From Thalassiosira profunda (taxonomy: Eukaryota; Bacillariophyta; Thalassiosirophyceae; Thalassiosirales; Thalassiosiraceae), in contig JALLAP010000448.1 of assembly GCA_036939355.1 (NCBI GenBank), forward strand, positions 1 to 12,897: 12,897 nucleotides of DNA. The letters run 5' to 3'. The notes beneath the pieces were generated by a model. It did not search any database and was not told the origin of the DNA. It saw nothing but the letters and a program-made list of their open reading frames with translations. Positions 2,521 through 12,897 of this stretch are shown one piece after another (positions within the stretch are counted from its first letter, which is position 1; every line of letters begins with the position of its first letter). A program made the translations under genes and the position numbers.

Positions 2521-3213
2521 GGTAGATTGTTAACGGGGCAGGGGCCGGCTGGCCTGGACGGTGGATGTGCCGTCGATGTCGCGAGTTCGGCAGACGCCGC
2601 AACCTCGCTGACACAGAGTCGGGTTTACGGCGAGGCGGATGGAATGGGCCTTGATGGTGATCGTAACACTTGCAATGGGCTTGACGGCGAGGCCGTCGCC
2701 GTTGTGTGTGGGCTGTTTGATCCTCGCTCTGCGTTAGGCCTTGATTTGTTTGCTCTTTTCGCCTCGCTTTGCCGTGCAAAAATTGCGACGAAAAAGGGCA
2801 GTTCCCAAAAAGTGAGAGTCATCCTGGCGGTCATGCGACCCTTTGAGTGTCCGTGTCCATTTCGGGGTTTCGGTGAGACACTACTTGATCAGCCTCTTTG
2901 AGCTTCATGCGAACATTGCTTTACAAATCTCCTCCTGCATTATTTCTTCCGAAATCTAGAATCTGGTAAGATATAATATTATTTTTGACAAAGCTTGGAG
3001 CTCGATTGTCGTTCTGCAGACAATTGTCCAACCATTAGATGTCTGCGGTACACAGACCGGCACTGGACCGATTTTCGCTCGCCGCGAAGAAGCTAGCAAA
3101 TTTGGGTAATTTGCGACAAAGTCCTGTCCGATTCCTTTCCCGAGCGTCTCATTCGGTTTCCTTTTTTTGCAACTTTCGCAACGCGACACCTCAGCTGGCG
3201 ACACTTCAACGCT
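2521..3213. other. Intergenic: upstream region of the HSF-like gene
   Basis: I see no gene that I can support. On the minus strand this is the 5' UTR and promoter of the HSF-like gene. The GC-rich part (about 2521-2720) passes into a mixed and then AT-rich stretch around 2935-2995, including a tataatattattttt run. No clear TATA box or canonical heat-shock element array was found. A 124-codon minus-strand ORF crosses from here into the adjacent foldback element and is not coding-like. Confidence 0.4.
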
Positions 3214-3484
3214 TAGGCTTGGGCGGATAGGGGGGAAGCCGCGAGGATTCCGGGGGGGATACACCCATTTTTGCACCCCGAAAATACGGGGGGACCTACG
3301 TAGGAACTCGTAGGATACATACCATGTCAAAGGGTTAACCCTAGCCCATTTGGGACAATTGGGACTCCATGGCCCGTTTGGGACCCAAATGGGCCCAAAT
3401 GACCCGATTTCGGCCCAAAACAGAGCCCCCCGGCGCCCAATTTTCCGGGGGGGCGCACCCGGCCCCCCTATCCGCCCAAGCCTA
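3214..3484. mobile_element. MITE-like foldback element with 20-bp perfect TIRs and TA flanks
   Basis: GGCTTGGGCGGATAGGGGGG (3216-3235) is the exact reverse complement of the sequence at 3463-3482. TA sits immediately outside each copy (3214-3215 and 3483-3484), as expected for a TA target-site duplication. The interior (about 227 bp) is non-coding and rich in G/C homopolymers. It holds a secondary inverted repeat (3344-3354 with 3384-3394, core CCCATTTGGG), a direct repeat TTCCGGGGGGG (3248-3258 and 3443-3453), and the palindrome CCTACGTAGG (3295-3304). No transposase is encoded, so it would depend on one supplied elsewhere. The class is unassigned; TA duplication is compatible with Tc1/mariner-like and several other groups. 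TA is itself palindromic, so it could simply be part of the inverted repeat. Confidence 0.65.
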
Positions 3485-3487
3485 CTC

Positions 3488-3520
3488 GTGGGACCTCCAA
3501 TTTATTGGCAAAGCGCGGGC
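3488..3520 (+). repeat. Candidate left terminal inverted repeat
   Basis: GTGGGACCTC (3488-3497), a 12-nt spacer, then AAAGCGCGGGC (3510-3520). The same two words in the same order, with a 13-nt spacer, occur on the opposite strand at 9163-9130. Two colinear 10- and 11-bp matches with near-equal spacing are unlikely by chance. The spacer is not conserved, so the repeat is diverged, or it could be a shared promoter motif instead. Confidence 0.5.
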
Positions 3521-4167
3521 CCGCCCACGAAAAATCACAACTCCAACCCACCAAAAAAGCCGCCCGCTCCCCAATCACCAGAATCATGGCGGTGCTATCT
3601 CCCCCATTCCTCCGGCGCCGCCGCCGATACAGCCATGCCCAGCACATCGCCGTGGAGCCCTCTCTCCCCGCCATCGTCTGGCGCCCCCGATTCCGCCGGC
3701 CCTGCGAGCGCGTGGCTAAAATCCGCCCCTGAGTTTGCTATCATGCGACGCCCCCGCTGCCGCCGACGACGATGCTAATGAGGTAAATAATAATGCTGAT
3801 GCTCTTCATAATCGTACCTGCCATCACATCACATCTAATTCATTATGCTGATAATATTTATCGAAGTTCTCGGCCAGGGCGTTGGCGCTCCGCATTCATT
3901 TATGTTGCAAAATGGGCGCGGCTCGTTTTGCAAAGAGAGCAAACTCACGTGCCGCGTTGATGGCGAGGCTCTCGACGGCGCGTCTCATCTATTCGCCGGG
4001 GCGGTGCTACTGGGTGGCAAACCGTGTCACCACAACCGAAATTCCTCCCTCTACTCCTCCGTTACTTCGAATTGCGTCCGGGAAGCGCGCGGGCCGGGCG
4101 TGTGGGGGATTGATTTGCAGCGGGGGGCGTGCGGGGGATACGTTGCGGGGGATACGTTCGGCGCCGT
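3521..4167. other. Stretch without a supportable gene
   Basis: Several short ORFs overlap on both strands, but none has a domain or consistent coding character. The best plus-strand candidate starts with ATG at 3586 and encodes only a 48-residue Arg/Pro-rich peptide. Composition shifts sharply to AT-rich at about 3775-3860, where ATGCTGAT occurs twice (in AATAATGCTGATG and CATTATGCTGATA contexts). It then returns to GC-rich sequence. An AG|GTAAAT donor-like site occurs near 3781 on the plus strand, but no matching exon frame is open across it. Confidence 0.35.
4131..4158. repeat. Perfect tandem repeat, 2 x 14 bp
   Basis: GCGGGGGATACGTT is repeated twice without a spacer (4131-4144 and 4145-4158). 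It lies about 10 bp beyond the stop codon of the minus-strand coding-like stretch ending at 4168. No function is apparent. Confidence 0.8.
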
Positions 4168-4360
4168 TCAGGAGTAGAAGGTGATGGACATCCTCACCGT
4201 GCTGTACTTGGCGGGGGAGGTGGGGTAGTTGACGATGCACTTGGCGGGAGGGTGCGTGGACTGCAGATGTTGCCCGTGGAGGATTCGTCCGCTGCTGCCC
4301 ACCGTCGCAAAACGATGCGTCACCGCCGAGGAACAAATGAAGAGGTGAGTCAGTCCTCGT
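4168..4360 (-). CDS. Possible orphan 3'-terminal exon (minus strand), origin unclear
   Basis: A minus-strand frame ending in TGA at 4170-4168 encodes a C-terminus reading ...CIVNYPTSPAKYSTVRMSITFYS. The last roughly 25 codons almost all end in C or G, a strong coding signature, and the residue mix looks like folded protein rather than GC-driven low complexity. Upstream the frame is closed by a TAA at about 4363-4361, just past the transposase stop, and there is no start codon near. It may be the last exon of a host gene split by the transposon, cargo inside the transposon, or an alternative last exon of the transposase transcript. No acceptor site is convincing. The protein family is not recognised. 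Confidence 0.35.
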
Positions 4361-4364
4361 TATT

Positions 4365-7300
4365 TTACAGAACCGGCTTGTACATGAAATTTGCCTGGAA
4401 GGCCCACGTCTTCCAGGCATAGTTGAACCGCTTTGCCGACATGCCCGTCTTGAAACCCGTTTGCATTAACCCTGATCTTTTGGACACGTTCACTCCCCTC
4501 TCATTTCCAGATCTATCACTCGAGACGCAGCCGGCAAATATGGTTTGAACCCCGGTGAAGCGCTTGTCGCTTTTTGCTGCTGGCGGCTGGAGAGCCATTT
4601 GGCGGCCCTTTTGCCACGCGGCCAACTTTCCGCGGTAGCCACGATCAAGGATATTGGTGAAGGCGACCACTTTTCCGTCGACACGGTCTTCCTCCTGGAA
4701 CTGCTTTTGCTCCTGCAAATACCCTGCGCGATCGTGATAGTCGGTATCCGAGCAACCGTCTCCCCACAAATCCTCAACGCCCAACCAGCCACACAGCTGC
4801 CCAAATACGCCGCCTTTGAAGCAGTTCTCGCCATAGTACTCGCTGTAAGTGGCCCGTTGCAAGCTTGCATCGCTGAATGCAACGGCTGATATGTTTGTCA
4901 TGTCCCACATGATCGCTCGATAACCATCGTATCTTCGCCACTTTTCTTTCTTCCGGCAGGCCATGTCCTCTTCGTACGATGCAAACCTCGGCCAGCTCAT
5001 CAAAGCCGCCATGTCCAGCGCCGCCTTGCTGTCCTTCACGCGGTTGATGTGGCGCTTATCGATGCCCCACGCCTTCTCCATGTCCTGTTGGCGACAGTTG
5101 GTTTTGCCGTGCTTCCACTCAAAATAAAGGACCCACTCCTCGAATGGCGTCAACGAGGTGACTCTGCTCCGAATTCGGCTGAAATCTCCATTGCAAACGA
5201 CGATGATGTAAGCGAACATGGTGGCCATATCGCGGAAGACAGTCCTTCTCTTCACATCTTTGCCTTTCATGGTGCTGGGCGTTACTGTTGGTGGTCTCTT
5301 GGCGCTGAGCTTCTCTTGGTCCAGAGGAGGCTCGAGCTGCTCCTTTCCTTTGGCTGGTTTCTTTCCTTTGGGCGGTTTCTTTTTGGATGGCGATGTGGCA
5401 TGCAATGGCACAGCTTTGAACACAGCTTCGCGCCTAGACGAATGCGTGTTGGAAGGGACGAGCCCAGCGGCGTTCGAAACGGCAGGGCACATTGGCACCA
5501 ATGCAGTCTGGGCGTCCGTCGAATCATTCTCAGCAAGCTGCTGCGCCAACATCATTGCGGCAGCAGCCTCTCCTTCTGCGACAAGGGTTGCCTGCTCTGC
5601 TGCGACCTTTAGCCTCTTCGCCGTCTGGAGCTCAGTCTCGTCGTCCACCGGCGCACTAGGAACGGTCAGGGGCGAGGATCCTTTAGCGATGGCTTCATTG
5701 AGTGCATTCAGTTGAGTCTGCCGGTATCGGTCGTGGCCCACACCCTTCGAAGAATCGGATGGCAATTGCGACGATTTTGGCCCAGCGCCGGCGATCAGAG
5801 TGAGCTCGTACTTTCTCTTGTGCGTTTTCCCTTCGTGTTGCACGCTGAACGTGTATTCCTTCTTCTCCACAGGATGGCAGCTACAAACCCTTAAACCCTC
5901 CTGCCTGTCATCTCGTTTCCCTCTGATACGATCCATCATCTCGCGTCGAAGCTCCTTCTTTGCTTTGTATGTGAAGAGCTTATTCAGGGACGCGTCCGCA
6001 GGCGGCTCTTTGGGGTACGGTGGGACCCGACGAAACGACAGACCGGGAATGTCAGAGCAGGAAGTGATGCAGCAGCCATTCTTCGCGCAGCTGTTGTTTG
6101 GAGCAGGACCGCTTCTCCACCCACCGTCCCGGGCCTTCTTTGGCGGAGAGGGCGCATCGTCAAGCACGGATTGGGAGCGGTCTTTCCTTTTCGCCGGTGA
6201 TGGAGTGACGGGGTGCTGAGCAGGAGTGTTGGCCGGTTGGTTGATGTTGGCAAGCTGCGTTGCTGTCTGGCGCATTGAGCGTTTCTCGCAACTATCAAGG
6301 AACGACGTCCATTCTTTTTGGGCAAGCGACAGCTTCTCTGCGTAGTCGTTCAGATCGATCGACTGCTCCTTCCGGCGATGTTCGAACAGCCTGAACCCAG
6401 CAAACTCGTATGTGGACGGGTTGATTCCAGCCGCATTCATAACAATCCCAGCCTGGTGATAGTTGGGCACGAATTTGACGATCTCCTCTTGCGGGTCCAA
6501 GTTCGCTTTGGGGTTTGCCCGGCGAAGGAGAACCTTTGCTTTGTGCTCCGGCGAATCGAATATGACGTTGGCGATGCAGCCAATCTCGTCGCCCTCGGGG
6601 GGTTTGTGAACCCGGCCCCACTCCTTCCTCCGCTGGGTCCCGGTGCGGTAGGACTGCAGCATCTGATAGAGGGTCGAGCGGTCGGCGACCTCCTCTGCAA
6701 TGGATACGTCGCCGCAACCGTTCATGAGGGTCAAAACGCTGCGCTTGATTGACTGAATGGCGTCGCTATCCCATGTATCCTTCTCAACGTTGGCCGAGGT
6801 CACCATCGACGAAAGCTCCAGCAGCATGTGCTCTCCGAGGTCCTCCGCGATGAGGAGCACGAGCAGGAACGCCCGCGCGAGAGTGTGCACGCACGCTGAT
6901 CTCCCGTTTTCTTTGGAGCCACTCTTGCAATCGCAATCGCTACACAACAACTCATCTTTGGTCAGCACGGTGTCGCCGGCGTACACTGCCTTCTTCATCG
7001 AGGCGGGAATGGGCGTTGAAATGTGGATGCCGACCTTGCCTTCGTACAGAATGAGCTTCGCCGTTTTGTTGTCCAGAGATTCTGTTCTGCTGTCGAGAGC
7101 GTGGCGCAGGCAGCGGCGCAGGAGGCGGTACCCAATGTCGACCCGGCACTGCTTTGCAAAGTCAATGAACATTTTTGGCATTGCAGAATAGACCGCGCCG
7201 TCCTTCTCCCAGTCCGTGTGCTTCTTCTTCCCGTCGCCAAATTCGATGAATGAGGCAAACAGCTCCAAGATGGCTGGAAGGTGCTTCTCGTCGATCTCGC

Positions 7301-8945
7301 TATTCAACAGGAAGGATCCGCCAAACCGGAAATCGATCTCTGCTAGCACATCCCACAATTCGCCCGATTTGATGGCCGACGTTGGATGCACCGGGAAGCG
7401 GACGGATCCTGCCACTTTTTCCAAAGATCGATGGAGAGCATGCCCAGCCCACGCATCTTCGACCTCGTCAATGGATAGCTTCTCCACATTTTCGAACTTG
7501 TACTTGTTCTTCAGCTCGTCTCGCATCTCCGCGATGGGCATCAGGTCGTCCACGTCAATGTCCGGCAAGACGGACTCGACGAGGTAGCACGATAGGCAAA
7601 ACTGATCTTTGCCAATGCTATCGGCGCACAGCCCACAAACTGTCTCTTTGCATCTCGAGCATGTGTGGTGGTCCTCGGCCGCGAGGAACTTGTGGCGGCC
7701 GCTGTCGTCGCCGAGAGGTCCTTTGCATTCCAGAACGGGCGGGCCGTCGACGATTGATGTGTCTCGCGCGCCGAACTCCTCGAGGTACTTTGGTAGTTCT
7801 ACCGGCTCCTCGCCAACGTATGTGTGCCGATCCGCGCCCTCTGCGTTGGTAGGCTCGTACAAAACCGCATCAACCAAGGTGTTGATCACTTCTCTGTTGT
7901 ATTTTGGCGGCACACCCCCCTTCGGCCTCGATGCCTCCACGGCGAAATCGACCATCTTGTCGTAGATCGACTCCTCGCTCGCCGGGCCCTCTTCCCTCAG
8001 CCGTTTCAGCTGCTCTTGCAACTTTTGCGGCCCGATACCCTTCACCCCTCCCGGAGAAACATCGCACCCGATAATGACGCCGTTCAGGGCGCGGAGCGAC
8101 GGATCTGCAATCCCCTCAAAGATAGGACATTCCGCATCCACCAACTTTACTTTTGATTTGGACTCCGGCGGTAGGAAGGATATCAGTTCTTCCATCGTCG
8201 CTTTGGACGTGCTCTGCATCGATACCTTGCGCCCAGTGAATTCATAAATCGTGATGCAGTCGTCACCTCCCTCTCCGGACATGTCACCATCTGTAGACAT
8301 CAGCAGTTGGGCCAATCCAGATTTGTATCGCCCGATCATCAACTTGTCGGCTTGCATTTCTGCAATCTTTGGTTTTGCTACACGTCCCCCCGCAGCGTTG
8401 CAATTATGAGCGGATATGCGGACGAGCGCCTTCCACAATCGATCCGGCAGATCTTTTGGCACCACATTCGTCGCCCGTGTCTCCGCCGTCTTGACCCTCC
8501 TCTCCAGCGACGTGCGCATCTTCATCAGTTTGCCTCGCTCTCCAGCACTTTGATAGTTGCCGTCGTTGAGTTTCTTGCCGACATCTCGGAGCTCCTGACG
8601 CGCAAGCAACGCCTTGATCTTATTCTTTTGCATCGTGGCGCGGTGCTGGTTCGTGGCCTGCTTTGCAATCGGCCTCGTGTCGCCGTCACAGACCGGCGTC
8701 ACAACGAACCCATATTGCGACCAATCCTTCAGATGATTTGCAACCGCATCGACTGGATCGCCGGCCGCAGAGCGCCCTACGATGTGAATGAGATTGTTGA
8801 TATCGACGTCCACGGCCGGGCGGGCGGCATTACTAGGCGGGGAGGGCTGCTGCTGAAGCTTCTTTTGCCCGACGGTGGCGGCGTCGACGCGCGTCAGCCC
8901 CTCCAGGCGATACATCACCTTCTTGCCATTGCTGCCGTACCCCAT
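4365..8945 (-). CDS. Multidomain transposase: FEN1/XPG-like nuclease + SWIM + THAP-like + DDE_Tnp_4
   Basis: ATG at 8945-8943, TAA at 4367-4365, 1526 residues, intronless. (a) Residues 46-310: FEN1/XPG-like nuclease. D48 is in VDVDINN, D87 in VCDGD, then QAD (198-200), D219/D221 in STDGDM, and a helix-three-turn-helix IIGCDVSPGGVKGIGPQK (291-308). (b) Residues 429-453: three CxxC pairs (treble-clef-like). (c) Residues 671-687: CDC...CVH, a SWIM-type CxCx11CxH finger. (d) Residues 916-937: Lys/Arg-rich NLS-like. (e) Residues 953-1024: THAP-like C2CH ending RVCSCH. (f) Residues 1105-1140: Ala/Glu helix. (g) Residues 1187-1201: lysine-rich. (h) Residues 1266-1311: HTH-like. (i) Residues 1345-1526: DDE_Tnp_4-like domain with D1348 (WDMTN), QRATYSEY, D1434 (LDRGY) and E1482 (GNERG). 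Expected role: binds element ends through the fingers, then cuts and joins DNA in the nucleus. The FEN1-like part may trim flaps. The uninterrupted frame suggests recent activity or domestication. Confidence 0.85.
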   Translation of the reverse strand: MGYGSNGKKVMYRLEGLTRVDAATVGQKKLQQQPSPPSNAARPAVDVDINNLIHIVGRSAAGDPVDAVANHLKDWSQYGFVVTPVCDGDTRPIAKQATNQHRATMQKNKIKALLARQELRDVGKKLNDGNYQSAGERGKLMKMRTSLERRVKTAETRATNVVPKDLPDRLWKALVRISAHNCNAAGGRVAKPKIAEMQADKLMIGRYKSGLAQLLMSTDGDMSGEGGDDCITIYEFTGRKVSMQSTSKATMEELISFLPPESKSKVKLVDAECPIFEGIADPSLRALNGVIIGCDVSPGGVKGIGPQKLQEQLKRLREEGPASEESIYDKMVDFAVEASRPKGGVPPKYNREVINTLVDAVLYEPTNAEGADRHTYVGEEPVELPKYLEEFGARDTSIVDGPPVLECKGPLGDDSGRHKFLAAEDHHTCSRCKETVCGLCADSIGKDQFCLSCYLVESVLPDIDVDDLMPIAEMRDELKNKYKFENVEKLSIDEVEDAWAGHALHRSLEKVAGSVRFPVHPTSAIKSGELWDVLAEIDFRFGGSFLLNSEIDEKHLPAILELFASFIEFGDGKKKHTDWEKDGAVYSAMPKMFIDFAKQCRVDIGYRLLRRCLRHALDSRTESLDNKTAKLILYEGKVGIHISTPIPASMKKAVYAGDTVLTKDELLCSDCDCKSGSKENGRSACVHTLARAFLLVLLIAEDLGEHMLLELSSMVTSANVEKDTWDSDAIQSIKRSVLTLMNGCGDVSIAEEVADRSTLYQMLQSYRTGTQRRKEWGRVHKPPEGDEIGCIANVIFDSPEHKAKVLLRRANPKANLDPQEEIVKFVPNYHQAGIVMNAAGINPSTYEFAGFRLFEHRRKEQSIDLNDYAEKLSLAQKEWTSFLDSCEKRSMRQTATQLANINQPANTPAQHPVTPSPAKRKDRSQSVLDDAPSPPKKARDGGWRSGPAPNNSCAKNGCCITSCSDIPGLSFRRVPPYPKEPPADASLNKLFTYKAKKELRREMMDRIRGKRDDRQEGLRVCSCHPVEKKEYTFSVQHEGKTHKRKYELTLIAGAGPKSSQLPSDSSKGVGHDRYRQTQLNALNEAIAKGSSPLTVPSAPVDDETELQTAKRLKVAAEQATLVAEGEAAAAMMLAQQLAENDSTDAQTALVPMCPAVSNAAGLVPSNTHSSRREAVFKAVPLHATSPSKKKPPKGKKPAKGKEQLEPPLDQEKLSAKRPPTVTPSTMKGKDVKRRTVFRDMATMFAYIIVVCNGDFSRIRSRVTSLTPFEEWVLYFEWKHGKTNCRQQDMEKAWGIDKRHINRVKDSKAALDMAALMSWPRFASYEEDMACRKKEKWRRYDGYRAIMWDMTNISAVAFSDASLQRATYSEYYGENCFKGGVFGQLCGWLGVEDLWGDGCSDTDYHDRAGYLQEQKQFQEEDRVDGKVVAFTNILDRGYRGKLAAWQKGRQMALQPPAAKSDKRFTGVQTIFAGCVSSDRSGNERGVNVSKRSGLMQTGFKTGMSAKRFNYAWKTWAFQANFMYKPVL

Positions 8946-9469
8946 GATTGCTGGCGGCGGCGATTGGCGGCAGTGTGATATGAGAGTGCTAAGGACGATC
9001 TAGGTGTGTGTGGCCGCGTTTATGTTGGGCTACTAGGGCGGCGACGACCATGGTTGTGGCGTCGGGGGCTGATTTGCCGAGTTCTTTGTGGGACCGCGCG
9101 CCAAAAAAAAAGTGGAAGTGTGGGGGGCAGCCCGCGCTTTCCCGGCAGCCAGAGAGGTCCCACAGCCCATTGCAGTGTGGCGGCGCGGATTTTTGTGGCG
9201 GGAGGGAGCGACGGAAGACCAAAGTGCCGGCGGCCTTAGTTCAACTTGCGCAAGCCGGCGGCAAAGATGATGTTCCCTCCGCCGCCTGCTTCAACAACAG
9301 CTGCGTGGCTCCTGGCGGCGGCCAACCCTGCCAATCAAATAGGTAAATCACCTTCCCATTCATTTCGGTCGACGATATAATCGCAACTCGAGCGCTGCCC
9401 AACGACGAAGATACCTCGTGGCGACGGCGCCGGCCGCTTGGGCATCTCGTGTTCCTCGCCCGAGCTGCA
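8946..9469. promoter_or_regulatory. Divergent intergenic region between transposase and transporter
   Basis: The region separates two divergently transcribed genes, so both promoters should lie here. The candidate right repeat of the transposon (9130-9163) divides it into an element-internal part (8946-9129) and host sequence (9164-9469). GTGGGACC occurs at 9088-9095 and its complement at 9157-9163/9156, making a local foldback. An A9 run follows at about 9102-9111. A TATA-like ATATAAT lies at about 9374, roughly 95 bp before the transporter ATG. A donor-like AG|GTAAAT near 9341 could mark a 5'-UTR intron, but no acceptor is clear. Promoter positions are inference. Confidence 0.4.
9130..9163 (-). 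repeat. Candidate right terminal inverted repeat
   Basis: Read on the minus strand from 9163: GTGGGACCTC, 13 nt, AAAGCGCGGGC (ending 9130). It mirrors 3488-3520. The outer flanks (CTACTC left, AGCCCA right) show no target-site duplication. Both copies are followed inward by C-rich sequence and, at about 98-112 bp, by an ATG, so a shared promoter origin cannot be excluded. Confidence 0.5.
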
Positions 9470-10840
9470 ATGATCTCATTGGCATTCCTGGTCCTCGGCC
9501 TGCTCGCAGGGGGCCACGGCTTCGCCTCGCCAGCTCGAGGAACATCGGCATCAATATCATCAAAGTGGTCGATCGGCGGCGGCTCCTCTATCCTCCGTGT
9601 GGTCACCGATCCCTCGACGGACACCTCCGCAACCACCACGCAAGACGAGTCGGTATCGGACCCGGCCTCGCTGCTGTACTACGACGACTTCCTCGATCCG
9701 GACAACCCGCTGGGCGTCGTTTGCGCGCGGGGAGTGTGTGTGCTACCAGATGACGACGATTATGACTTCTCGGCGCCGCCCGGCTCTCTCGACGGTGCAC
9801 CAATGGAGCAGAAGAAACAATCGTTAGTGGACGCAGTGCTCGGCTCGTACCTCGGCCCGCGGCTGTTGCTGGCATTCGCGTCAGTGCTTTACGGGACCAA
9901 CTTCCCTCTCGGGGCGATGATGAACGACTCTCTCCCTCCATCCGCGGCCACCTCGGCGAGGATGCTGTTGGCAAGTGTCGCGTTGTCGCCGTTCCTCTTC
10001 AAGTTGGAGGGCAAGCTGGCGCCCAGCGCCCTGCTATGCGGGTGCTTCACTGCCATGGGGTATATCACTCAATCGCTTAGCCTTGTCGATACGAGTCCGG
10101 CCAAGGTGGCCTTTTTGGGAGCGGCCACCGTCATCGTCTGCCCGGCACTGGAGGTGTTGGTCAACAAGAAAGACATGTCGCCGGCAAACCAACCGCAAGT
10201 TTGGCTCGCGGCAACTCTCTGCATTCTCGGCGTGGGAATCTTGGAGCTGTACGATCCTACGGGCGCCACGGCGCTGAGCGAAAGCTTTTCTCAAATAGGA
10301 GCGGGCGACGGGCTGGCTATTCTGCAAGCGGTGGGATTTGGTACCTCGTTCTTTCTCACCGAACGGATGATGACGCAGGTGCCAGGGCAAGCTTTGCCAA
10401 TCACGGCGGTACAGGTGTCGGTGACGGCTTTTCTGTGCATGATTTGGTCTTTTATGGATGGGTGGGTCGGGTCCCAAGGCGCGGCATCGTACGGAGTCCC
10501 GGCCATGTTCTTCGATCCGACATTGCAAACGGCTGCGTTGGCCGTAGCGTGGACCGGAATAATAACCACCGCGCTGAATCGGTTCATCGAAACGACCGCA
10601 CTGGGGAAGATGAAGAGCGCCGAGGCCTCGGTGATATTGGCCACGGAGCCGCTGTGGGCCAGCCTCTTTGCGGCGCTGTGGCTGCGAGAGGACTTTGGGG
10701 CCAACGATTATATCGGCGGGGCGTTGATTGTGGGCGCTTGTTTGGCGACGGCGCTGAAGAAGGACGATTTTAGAGGCTTTGGGGACTTTTTCGGTGGTGG
10801 CAGCGGCAGTGCAAAGAGGGCAGAGGGCTCGTTCGAGTGA
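9470..10840 (+). CDS. EamA/DMT-superfamily transporter, probably plastid-targeted
   Basis: The ATG at 9470 gives 456 residues. The N-terminus MISLAFLVLGLLAGGHGFAS is a hydrophobic signal peptide. It is followed by FASPARGTSASISSK, a Ser/Ala/basic stretch with Phe at the probable cleavage point, resembling the ASAFAP-type bipartite leader of diatom plastid proteins. An acidic linker (about residues 48-100) precedes the membrane part. Two EamA-like repeats follow, about residues 131-262 and 281-430, with roughly ten hydrophobic helices. The hallmark near the end of repeat 2 is AEASVILATEPLWASLFAAL, then LRE and YIGGALIVGACLA. Members of this superfamily exchange small metabolites across membranes. 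The substrate cannot be read from sequence, and phosphate-translocator identity is not indicated. The gene is single-exon, divergent from the transposase, and followed by the GST-oxygenase gene on the same strand. Confidence 0.85.
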   Translation: MISLAFLVLGLLAGGHGFASPARGTSASISSKWSIGGGSSILRVVTDPSTDTSATTTQDESVSDPASLLYYDDFLDPDNPLGVVCARGVCVLPDDDDYDFSAPPGSLDGAPMEQKKQSLVDAVLGSYLGPRLLLAFASVLYGTNFPLGAMMNDSLPPSAATSARMLLASVALSPFLFKLEGKLAPSALLCGCFTAMGYITQSLSLVDTSPAKVAFLGAATVIVCPALEVLVNKKDMSPANQPQVWLAATLCILGVGILELYDPTGATALSESFSQIGAGDGLAILQAVGFGTSFFLTERMMTQVPGQALPITAVQVSVTAFLCMIWSFMDGWVGSQGAASYGVPAMFFDPTLQTAALAVAWTGIITTALNRFIETTALGKMKSAEASVILATEPLWASLFAALWLREDFGANDYIGGALIVGACLATALKKDDFRGFGDFFGGGSGSAKRAEGSFE

Positions 10841-11184: not shown

Positions 11185-12897
11185 ATGCACAGGCTGCTGC
11201 GCGCGGCGTCGTCGCAATCGTCGCATTCGCTCCGACCTGCCTTCGGCATCCTCTCCTCTCGGTGCATCGGAATCCGAACCCATGCGACGGAGGGGCGGCC
11301 GGTCTTCTTCGACATGGTCCACTCCAACAACGCCGCCCGCGTCCGGCTCTGGGTGCAGATGAAGAAGCCCGGCGGCGCGATGCGCGACGAGATCGAGACG
11401 CGCACGATCGCGTATCCCGACCTGCAGACTCAGGAGTTCGCCCGGGCGAATCCGCTGCGGAAGGTGCCCGCGCTGATCCGCCCCGACGGCGAGGCGATCT
11501 TCGAGAGCCACGTGATTCTCTCATATCTGGAGGACAAATACAAGAGAGCGGGGCCGCCGTTCGAGCCGCCGACCCCCGAGGGGCGGCAAGCGATGCAGCT
11601 TCTCTGCCGCCTCCACGACCTGTACGTCGCGTCGCCCAATTGCACGGCCCCGGGGTTCAGCCACTCCCAGGGAGCGATGTACCTGTCGACTGAGTGGCAC
11701 GGGAGGGCGCGCGGAATGGATTCGGCGGCGAGGGCGGCCAAGCTGGGCGAGCTGTGGCGGCAGCTCTGCTGGCTCGAGGCGGAGGTCGGAAAGACGAAGA
11801 AGAAGAAGACTGGTGGAACGACGTGTCACCTCCTCGGGGAGCAGCTCACCCTGGCCGACTTTACCTGGTTCCCGACGTGCGTCTTCATGGAGTACATTCT
11901 GCCGAGGGTCTTCGGCTGGCCGCACCTGTTCGATCCCGACGCCAGGCATCCCGCGNTTCATGGAGTACATTCTGCCGAGGGTCTTCGGCTGGCCGCACCT
12001 GTTCGATCCCGACGCCAGGCATCCCGCGCCCACTCCGTTTCCGAACCTCGCCGAGTGGTACAACGCGATGCAGCGAGCGTACCCGGAGTTCGTCAAGGTG
12101 CGCGACGATATTTGGGGCTATTGGGTGAAGATGGACGGGGCGGGTCAATTCCAGCCCATCGTTACCGAGATCAGTCCTCCCAACGTCGACCCGACGCTCA
12201 AGTTCCAATATGGGGTTCCGTCGAAGGTGATGCTGAACTACCAGGAGCCGCCGCCGGCGGGGAAGGCGACGGGCCGGTACATCGACCAGCCGGACCGCGG
12301 CGACGTTGTAGACGAACACGTGAAACGGCCGGTGATGATGCGGGACGGACGAGAACTAGTCCCACCTGCCACCCTCGATACCTACGGATTTGCTCTCCGC
12401 CACTGGCCAACCGAAGTATGCAACTTTCGAGACGACGACGACGTTGTCAAGGTGTACTACGAGGAGATGGAGCGATTGGTGAAGGATGCGAGCGGAGCAT
12501 GCAGCGTTCACATCTTCGATCACACCGTTCGCAAGAGCGGTAAGACGAATCTGAATGCTGATGCAGGGGCAGGGTCTGCAGCGGCCCCGGTGCCCCGTGT
12601 TCACTGCGACTATACTCACGATGGGGCTCCACGGCGTTTGCTCCAGCTTGGCAAGGATGGCATGTACTCGAAGTCGAAACAAAGAATACTCACGGAGGAT
12701 GAGGTTGCTCAGCTTGCAAGCAATAGGTTTGCATTTATCAATGTTTGGCGGTCCATCGACGACGAGGCCCCGTGCGTCCTGCGAGAGCCTCTCGCTGTGT
12801 GCGACGAGAGGTCTGTATCCAAGGAGGACCGGTTCATTTACGAGCTGCGTTTCCCAAATCGGACCGGCGAGAATTACTCGCTCCGACACTCAGATCT
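11185..12897 (+). CDS. GST fused to CmcJ/NvfI-type iron oxygenase-like domain (3' partial, assembly-broken)
   Basis: From ATG 11185, residues 1-34 (MHRLLRAASSQSSHSLRPAF...) are Arg/Ser-rich and lack acids, like a mitochondrial presequence. Residues 39-117 form a GST thioredoxin-like domain: HSNNAARVR (Ser a candidate catalytic residue), NPLRKVPAL (glutathione-site cis-Pro motif) and ESHVILSYL. Residues 130-285 are the GST helical domain with GEQLTLADF. The frame then meets an N inside a 72-bp duplication. Removing one copy plus N (73 nt) puts the downstream frame directly in register (...ARHPA-PTPFPNLAEWYNAM...), open from 11957 side to the window end. From about 12160 it matches the CmcJ/NvfI/GA4-desaturase-like family: LDTYGFALRHW, VHIFDHTVR, VHCDYTHDGAPRRL (HxD iron site, His codon 12602-12604), FAFINVWRSI and PLAVCDERSV. 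The distal His and C-terminus lie beyond the window. Upstream ATGs at 11119-11149 are alternative starts. Confidence 0.75.
11884..12028 (+). repeat. 72-bp perfect direct duplication around a single N (assembly artefact)
   Basis: Bases 11884-11955 and 11957-12028 are identical, separated by N at 11956. This is the typical trace of two contig ends that overlap but were joined with a placeholder gap. Collapsing one copy restores the GST reading frame and a normal GST C-terminal domain. A true biological duplication would give a frameshift in mid-domain. Confidence 0.92.

Follow-up and report, generated by a model that had tools for sequence, protein, structure and literature searches.

The window, the 12,897-nucleotide stretch of Thalassiosira profunda DNA analysed here (contig JALLAP010000448.1), carries an element whose single protein fuses a Rad2/XPG-family nuclease to a THAP–DDE_Tnp_4-like transposase (4365–8945, minus strand). 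The fusion is a real feature of one transposon protein: the frame runs from the ATG at 8945 to the stop at 4365–4367, with no internal stop across all 1526 codons. With a probability of about 0.72, we read the element as a diatom DNA transposon, autonomous or once so, whose protein carries its own DNA-end-processing enzyme. Taken separately, its architecture and transposon origin are very probable.

The same arrangement recurs outside the window. A protein search with the single window sequence as query scored 7985 candidates, of which 18 proteins reached E ≤ 0.001; among these 18, 12 cover 99–100% of the query at 32–52% identity, and the remaining 6 cover 60–82%. Diverse relatives in public sequence collections therefore retain the nuclease–transposase layout. 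A search with the whole alignment returned 7 proteins, compared with the 18 found by the single sequence. The earlier note on this DNA had proposed that one transposon protein joins a FEN/XPG-fold nuclease to a THAP–DDE_Tnp_4-like transposase; structure comparison, family matches and the 12 full-length relatives bear this out, and these relatives supply the further copies with identical domain order.

Domain architecture of the fusion protein

The nuclease (residues 1–395; 7761–8945, minus strand) was identified by structure comparison and by its acidic residues. A Rad2/XPG fold spans residues 2–395, with about 15% identity to the EXO1/FEN1/XPG class in the structural alignment. In the structure comparison, the modelled domain is closest to EXO1 rather than FEN1, so that the FEN1-like nuclease of the earlier note holds for the fold and not for the nearest relative. 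Rad2/XPG nucleases such as FEN1 and EXO1 typically have seven acidic metal ligands. Six of these positions (D48, D87, D200, D219, D221 and D295) are conserved here in every alignment row having a letter there, the last four being present in 22 of 22 rows. Besides the fold and these positions, the domain shares with EXO1, FEN1 and XPG an MG start (17 of 19 rows) and a GVKGIGP motif. It differs from them in its fusion to a transposase and in residue 198, which is Gln in 20 of 22 rows and Glu in the host FEN1. Profile–profile comparison with the host FEN1 gave a match limited to the GCD...GIGP segment (29 columns, E 0.00027). D48 is out of register with the FEN1 Asp in the alignment, where the host FEN1 frame may hold an unspliced intron. 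The XPG_I profile, run over the T. profunda genome (21.8 Mb, 1366 contigs), did not have this family among its matches.

The Gln at 198 weighs against full activity. It would suit a domain that is dead or nearly so, and that acts as a structure-specific DNA-binding module holding branched or gapped DNA for the transposase. We give this explanation a minor chance, as every lettered row retains the remaining six acidic residues, across proteins that are 32–52% identical to that of the window. Because six of the seven positions are kept, we lean towards a catalytically active nuclease.

Three cysteine-containing segments lie between the nuclease and the transposase core, all on the minus strand. 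The first (residues 429–453; 7587–7661) is a zinc-finger-like segment of six cysteines, invariant in the family alignment, with a weak resemblance to FYVE and piccolo fingers: in Pfam, FYVE_2 weakly matches 3 of 19 family members (best E 0.0086) and zf-piccolo 2 of 19 (best E 0.0039). SWIM fingers follow the pattern CxCxnCxH. The second segment (residues 671–687; 6885–6935) has this pattern as CxCx11CxH, with C671, C673, C685 and H687 all invariant, and Pfam SWIM had no match at E ≤ 1 among the 19 members. The third (residues 953–1024; 5874–6089) is a THAP-like C2CH finger with the spacing C953-x4-C958-x62-C1021-x2-H1024, in which C958 is kept in at least 90% of rows and the other three residues in all. 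Pfam THAP was reached in one member alone, P0002, below threshold (E 0.088). The THAP and SWIM fingers of the earlier note are thus present as conserved patterns, SWIM by pattern only and THAP with sub-threshold profile support. The copies on contigs C474 and C1007 have an additional PHD-like Cys/His-rich insertion between SWIM and THAP, not found in the window protein.

The C-terminal part (residues 1245–1526; 4368–5213, minus strand) comprises a helical region and a DDE_Tnp_4-like RNase H core with D1348, D1434 and E1482 as catalytic triad. The helical region is a possible helix-turn-helix (HTH), seen as helices in a structure model. DDE_Tnp_4 (PF13359) matches 7 of 19 members at E ≤ 1, exceeding its curated cut-off in P0002 (29.4 bits against 24.8) and staying below it in P0015 and P0013. 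The window protein itself has no match to it, a profile comparison of the family with two ordinary DDE_Tnp_4 proteins from the same genome matched nothing, and the family was not among the matches of the DDE_Tnp_4 profile over that genome. The family shares the catalytic core of DDE_Tnp_4 transposases and is divergent from them by profile comparison. Foldseek with the C-terminal half gave nothing at E ≤ 0.001, Pfam and PDB searches with the single window sequence gave nothing significant, and 4 proteins run against NCBIfam had no match above cut-off. Run against PDB sequences, the whole-length profile matched just two entries (best E 0.23), neither of them a nuclease or a transposase.

Copies, relatives and selection

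The own-genome protein search found the window and copies on four further contigs, C474, C1178, C1268 and C1007. The C474 copy is one open frame of 1691 codons without N. The other three frames are interrupted, and the C1268 copy is without the part between residues ~818 and 1383. Single N's flanked by ~72-bp duplications lie inside the frames on C1178, C1268 and C1007; these are assembly joins, not mutations. The window has such a direct duplication of ~72 bp at 11884–12028, around one N (11956), an unmerged overlap of an assembly join that falsely breaks frames. False joins of this kind, on the window contig and others, might suggest that the fusion is itself an assembly or gene-model artefact uniting unrelated genes. 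However, 4365–8945 contains no N, C474 is open throughout, and 12 of the 18 relatives found in the database, which come from several sources, show the full order, so that an artefact is refuted for practical purposes.

One database relative, P0003 (ACHAXT_012880), is itself from T. profunda and matches the copy on C1178 in three parts, at 95.5% (852 columns, 22 of them gaps), 93.8% (434 columns) and 99.7% (299 columns). Its gene model is without a short stretch that C1178 has open, and the frame is therefore probably continuous in P0003 too. A query with the THAP–DDE half found 29 proteins at E ≤ 0.001, 28 of them new beside the set from the first search. Each of the 29 aligns with a later portion of this same family, starting near residue 610 or further downstream. 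In 27 cases no contig exceeds 5.6 kb, a length at which truncation and a true two-frame form are indistinguishable. P0041 (756 amino acids, on a 35-kb contig) and P0047 (519 amino acids, beginning at the finger) are candidate nuclease-free forms. A single-pattern scan of IMG/VR picked out 60 stretches, of which none was confirmed.

Trees were built from 13 full-length proteins for the nuclease (residues 1–400), middle (420–940) and DDE (1245–1526) parts. The window groups with P0001–P0006 in all three (support 100/100, 100/100 and 100/99, respectively), and P0012, P0013 and P0017 group together with the same values. P0011, P0014 and P0015 group in the middle (94/95) and DDE (88/87) trees and are ungrouped in the nuclease tree, where the fork is weak (82/86, drawn open). 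The shared groupings indicate that the three parts are one old fusion. Selection was assessed on the sister pair C1268/C1007, for which dN/dS is 0.153 over 532 codons, from near the nuclease end through the middle part, and 0.093 over 144 DDE codons. The middle and DDE parts of this pair are under purifying selection; the codons compared include no nuclease catalytic residues, for which conservation across alignment rows is the sole guide to selection.

Element ends and mobility

The C1268 copy ends in AT-GGAGGGTCCTGC ... GCAGGACCTCGC-AT. Its 3′ end is also present on C338 and C44, and its 5′ end, differing at one base, on C82; the flanks differ each time. AT borders all five ends of this subfamily (both ends of C1268 and those on C338, C44 and C82) and could be part of the repeat; after AT, 5′ ends read GGAG and 3′ ends GCGA. 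A pattern made from the C1268 repeat has five matches on four contigs of the genome and its reversed control none, which, as the pattern was drawn from the same sequences, shows specificity and is not an independent discovery. With strict gaps, the repeat score was reached by 9 of 500 shuffles for C1268, 8 for C1178 and 66 for the window. Mobility of the C1268 subfamily is well supported by these end sequences. The first ~240 bases of C338 and C44 combine the C1268-type terminal repeat with a different interior common to both contigs, which may represent a separate element mobilised through these ends or else a relative that is non-autonomous.

In the window, the candidate 5′ terminal inverted repeat (9120–9163, minus strand) starts GTGGGACCTC and is not significant alone; the candidate 3′ repeat (3488–3528, minus strand) ends GAGGTCCCAC and lies near the limit of similarity to C1178, which at the DNA level extends ~780 bp beyond the stop codon, to about 3582. 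By these candidate ends the element would span about 3488–9163. The repeats were equalled in 1 of 300 shuffles with the chosen 3′ piece, but in 169 of 300 in an unbiased test with lax gaps. Candidate repeats of the window and C1178 both carry GGGACC, and AT is not directly at the candidate ends of either. Mobility is moderately supported for the C1178 copy, and for the window copy it is suggested only by kinship and by the C1178 similarity past the stop.

The window copy might be a domesticated gene of the host that arose from such a transposon and has lost its mobility. The intact frame, a genome without a near-identical copy and terminal repeats not significant alone all agree with domestication. 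By contrast, the C1178 similarity running past the stop to near the predicted end is what two copies of a transposon would show, GGGACC occurs in the candidate repeats of both C1178 and the window, and the relatives found in the database form a diverse set, not a single orthologous gene. We consider domestication unlikely.

A 27-bp inverted repeat (3209–3235 and 3463–3489) was rejected as an end of the fusion element, since it is part of a distinct miniature element that is also present elsewhere. This miniature inverted-repeat element (3209–3489, ~271 bp, 22–27-bp repeats, apparent TA flanks) lies at the 3′ side of the fusion element and has 8 more genome matches at 80–88% identity, some partial. 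Beside it, 2858–3212 is a repeated stretch 80% identical to a stretch on C735. On the 5′ side, an EamA-type transporter gene (9449–10840, plus strand; PF00892, E 3.7e-22) adjoins the fusion element in the opposite orientation; it has kept an open frame and so seems undisturbed by the insertion.

Proposed nuclease role and comparison with known systems

We propose that the THAP-like finger and the helical (HTH) region would bind the transposon ends, which the DDE core would cut and join, while the tethered nuclease would act 5′–3′ on breaks or gaps arising from excision or insertion. By trimming flaps or resecting donor-site ends, it could lead into gap repair or homologous copying, and repair of this kind would help the donor site to regain the element. 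Flap removal and the start of resection cannot be told apart from sequence as the nuclease's job, and a specific role in donor-site or gap processing is a tentative proposal. Equally tentative is the broader idea that an EXO1-type resecting nuclease has become a permanent part of a cut-and-paste transposase lineage, with one and the same protein making the break, resecting it and choosing the repair route. If so, the donor gap could be steered, for example, into homologous copying, restoring the element and raising copy number. A nuclease in cis with the transposase, from a well-understood enzyme class for which dead mutants are known, makes the role directly testable.

By analogy, the window family looks like ISL2EU with YqaJ swapped for an EXO1-type nuclease and the two frames merged, and the fused nuclease may play the role of the separate YqaJ exonuclease protein of ISL2EU elements. 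YqaJ and EXO1 are both 5′–3′ exonucleases, and the closeness to EXO1 makes such a replacement easier to understand. The YqaJ fold is restriction-endonuclease-like and thus differs from Rad2/XPG. In the available text of Han et al. (2015, PMC4482050), the ISL2EU group (PHIS superfamily) is reported from 14 species, all animals; its elements, of ~4.8 kb, have AT duplications, repeats usually starting with GG, a THAP–HTH–DDE frame and, in most cases, a further frame encoding YqaJ, and the authors call the role of such further frames still unknown. The window family shares with the group so described a DDE transposase, here with a THAP-like finger and a possible HTH, a nuclease encoded by the element, a similar size (~5.7 kb by the candidate ends) and, at the C1268-subfamily ends, an AT after which the 5′ end begins with GG. 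It differs in its single frame with an EXO1/FEN1-type nuclease and in its diatom host; the extended A|AT|T target given for ISL2EU was not seen at the C1268-subfamily ends. The THAP-like finger, the DDE_Tnp_4-like core and the AT beside the sister-subfamily ends would also fit a plain ISL2EU (PHIS) element whose exonuclease is a diverged YqaJ, but the Rad2/XPG fold and the one frame in place of two make this very improbable. Because Pfam YqaJ has no match in 19 members, and a Rad2/XPG domain stands in the same frame instead, we do not class the element as ISL2EU. The fused ISL2EU/IS4EU form envisaged earlier, with YqaJ replaced, is retained for the Rad2/XPG domain in YqaJ's place and given up as strict ISL2EU membership.

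The same genome contains a second putative transposase–exonuclease fusion, L055 (contig C628, 145–3327, plus strand), in which DDE_Tnp_1_7 (Transposase IS4) is followed by YqaJ in one frame, each above cut-off (E 6.9e-6). Judged by paper titles, no element like L055 was found described, and none with a fusion like that of the window in literature titles and abstract openings, with most subscription papers, Repbase and Dfam outside that scope. SETMAR (Metnase) is a domesticated gene, not a transposon. It likewise joins a DDE transposase to another domain and has DNA-repair roles, the domain being SET instead of a nuclease (PMC4593633, in its available part). Among DDE transposons, KolobokP and KolobokD acquired accessory nucleases, a His-Me finger and a DEDDh exonuclease, respectively; as far as the available text of Kojima and Bao (2022, PMC9587614) goes, they differ from the window family in transposase superfamily, TTAA duplications and nuclease class. 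A Kolobok assignment was rejected, as there is no TTAA at either C1268 end or at the C338, C44 and C82 ends. The reason for a second nuclease in certain DDE transposons (YqaJ in ISL2EU, DEDDh in KolobokD) is unsettled, and the window family bears on this question: it places an ISL2EU-like element in a diatom, and an unrelated nuclease in YqaJ's place would suggest that what such elements need is end processing, whichever fold provides it.
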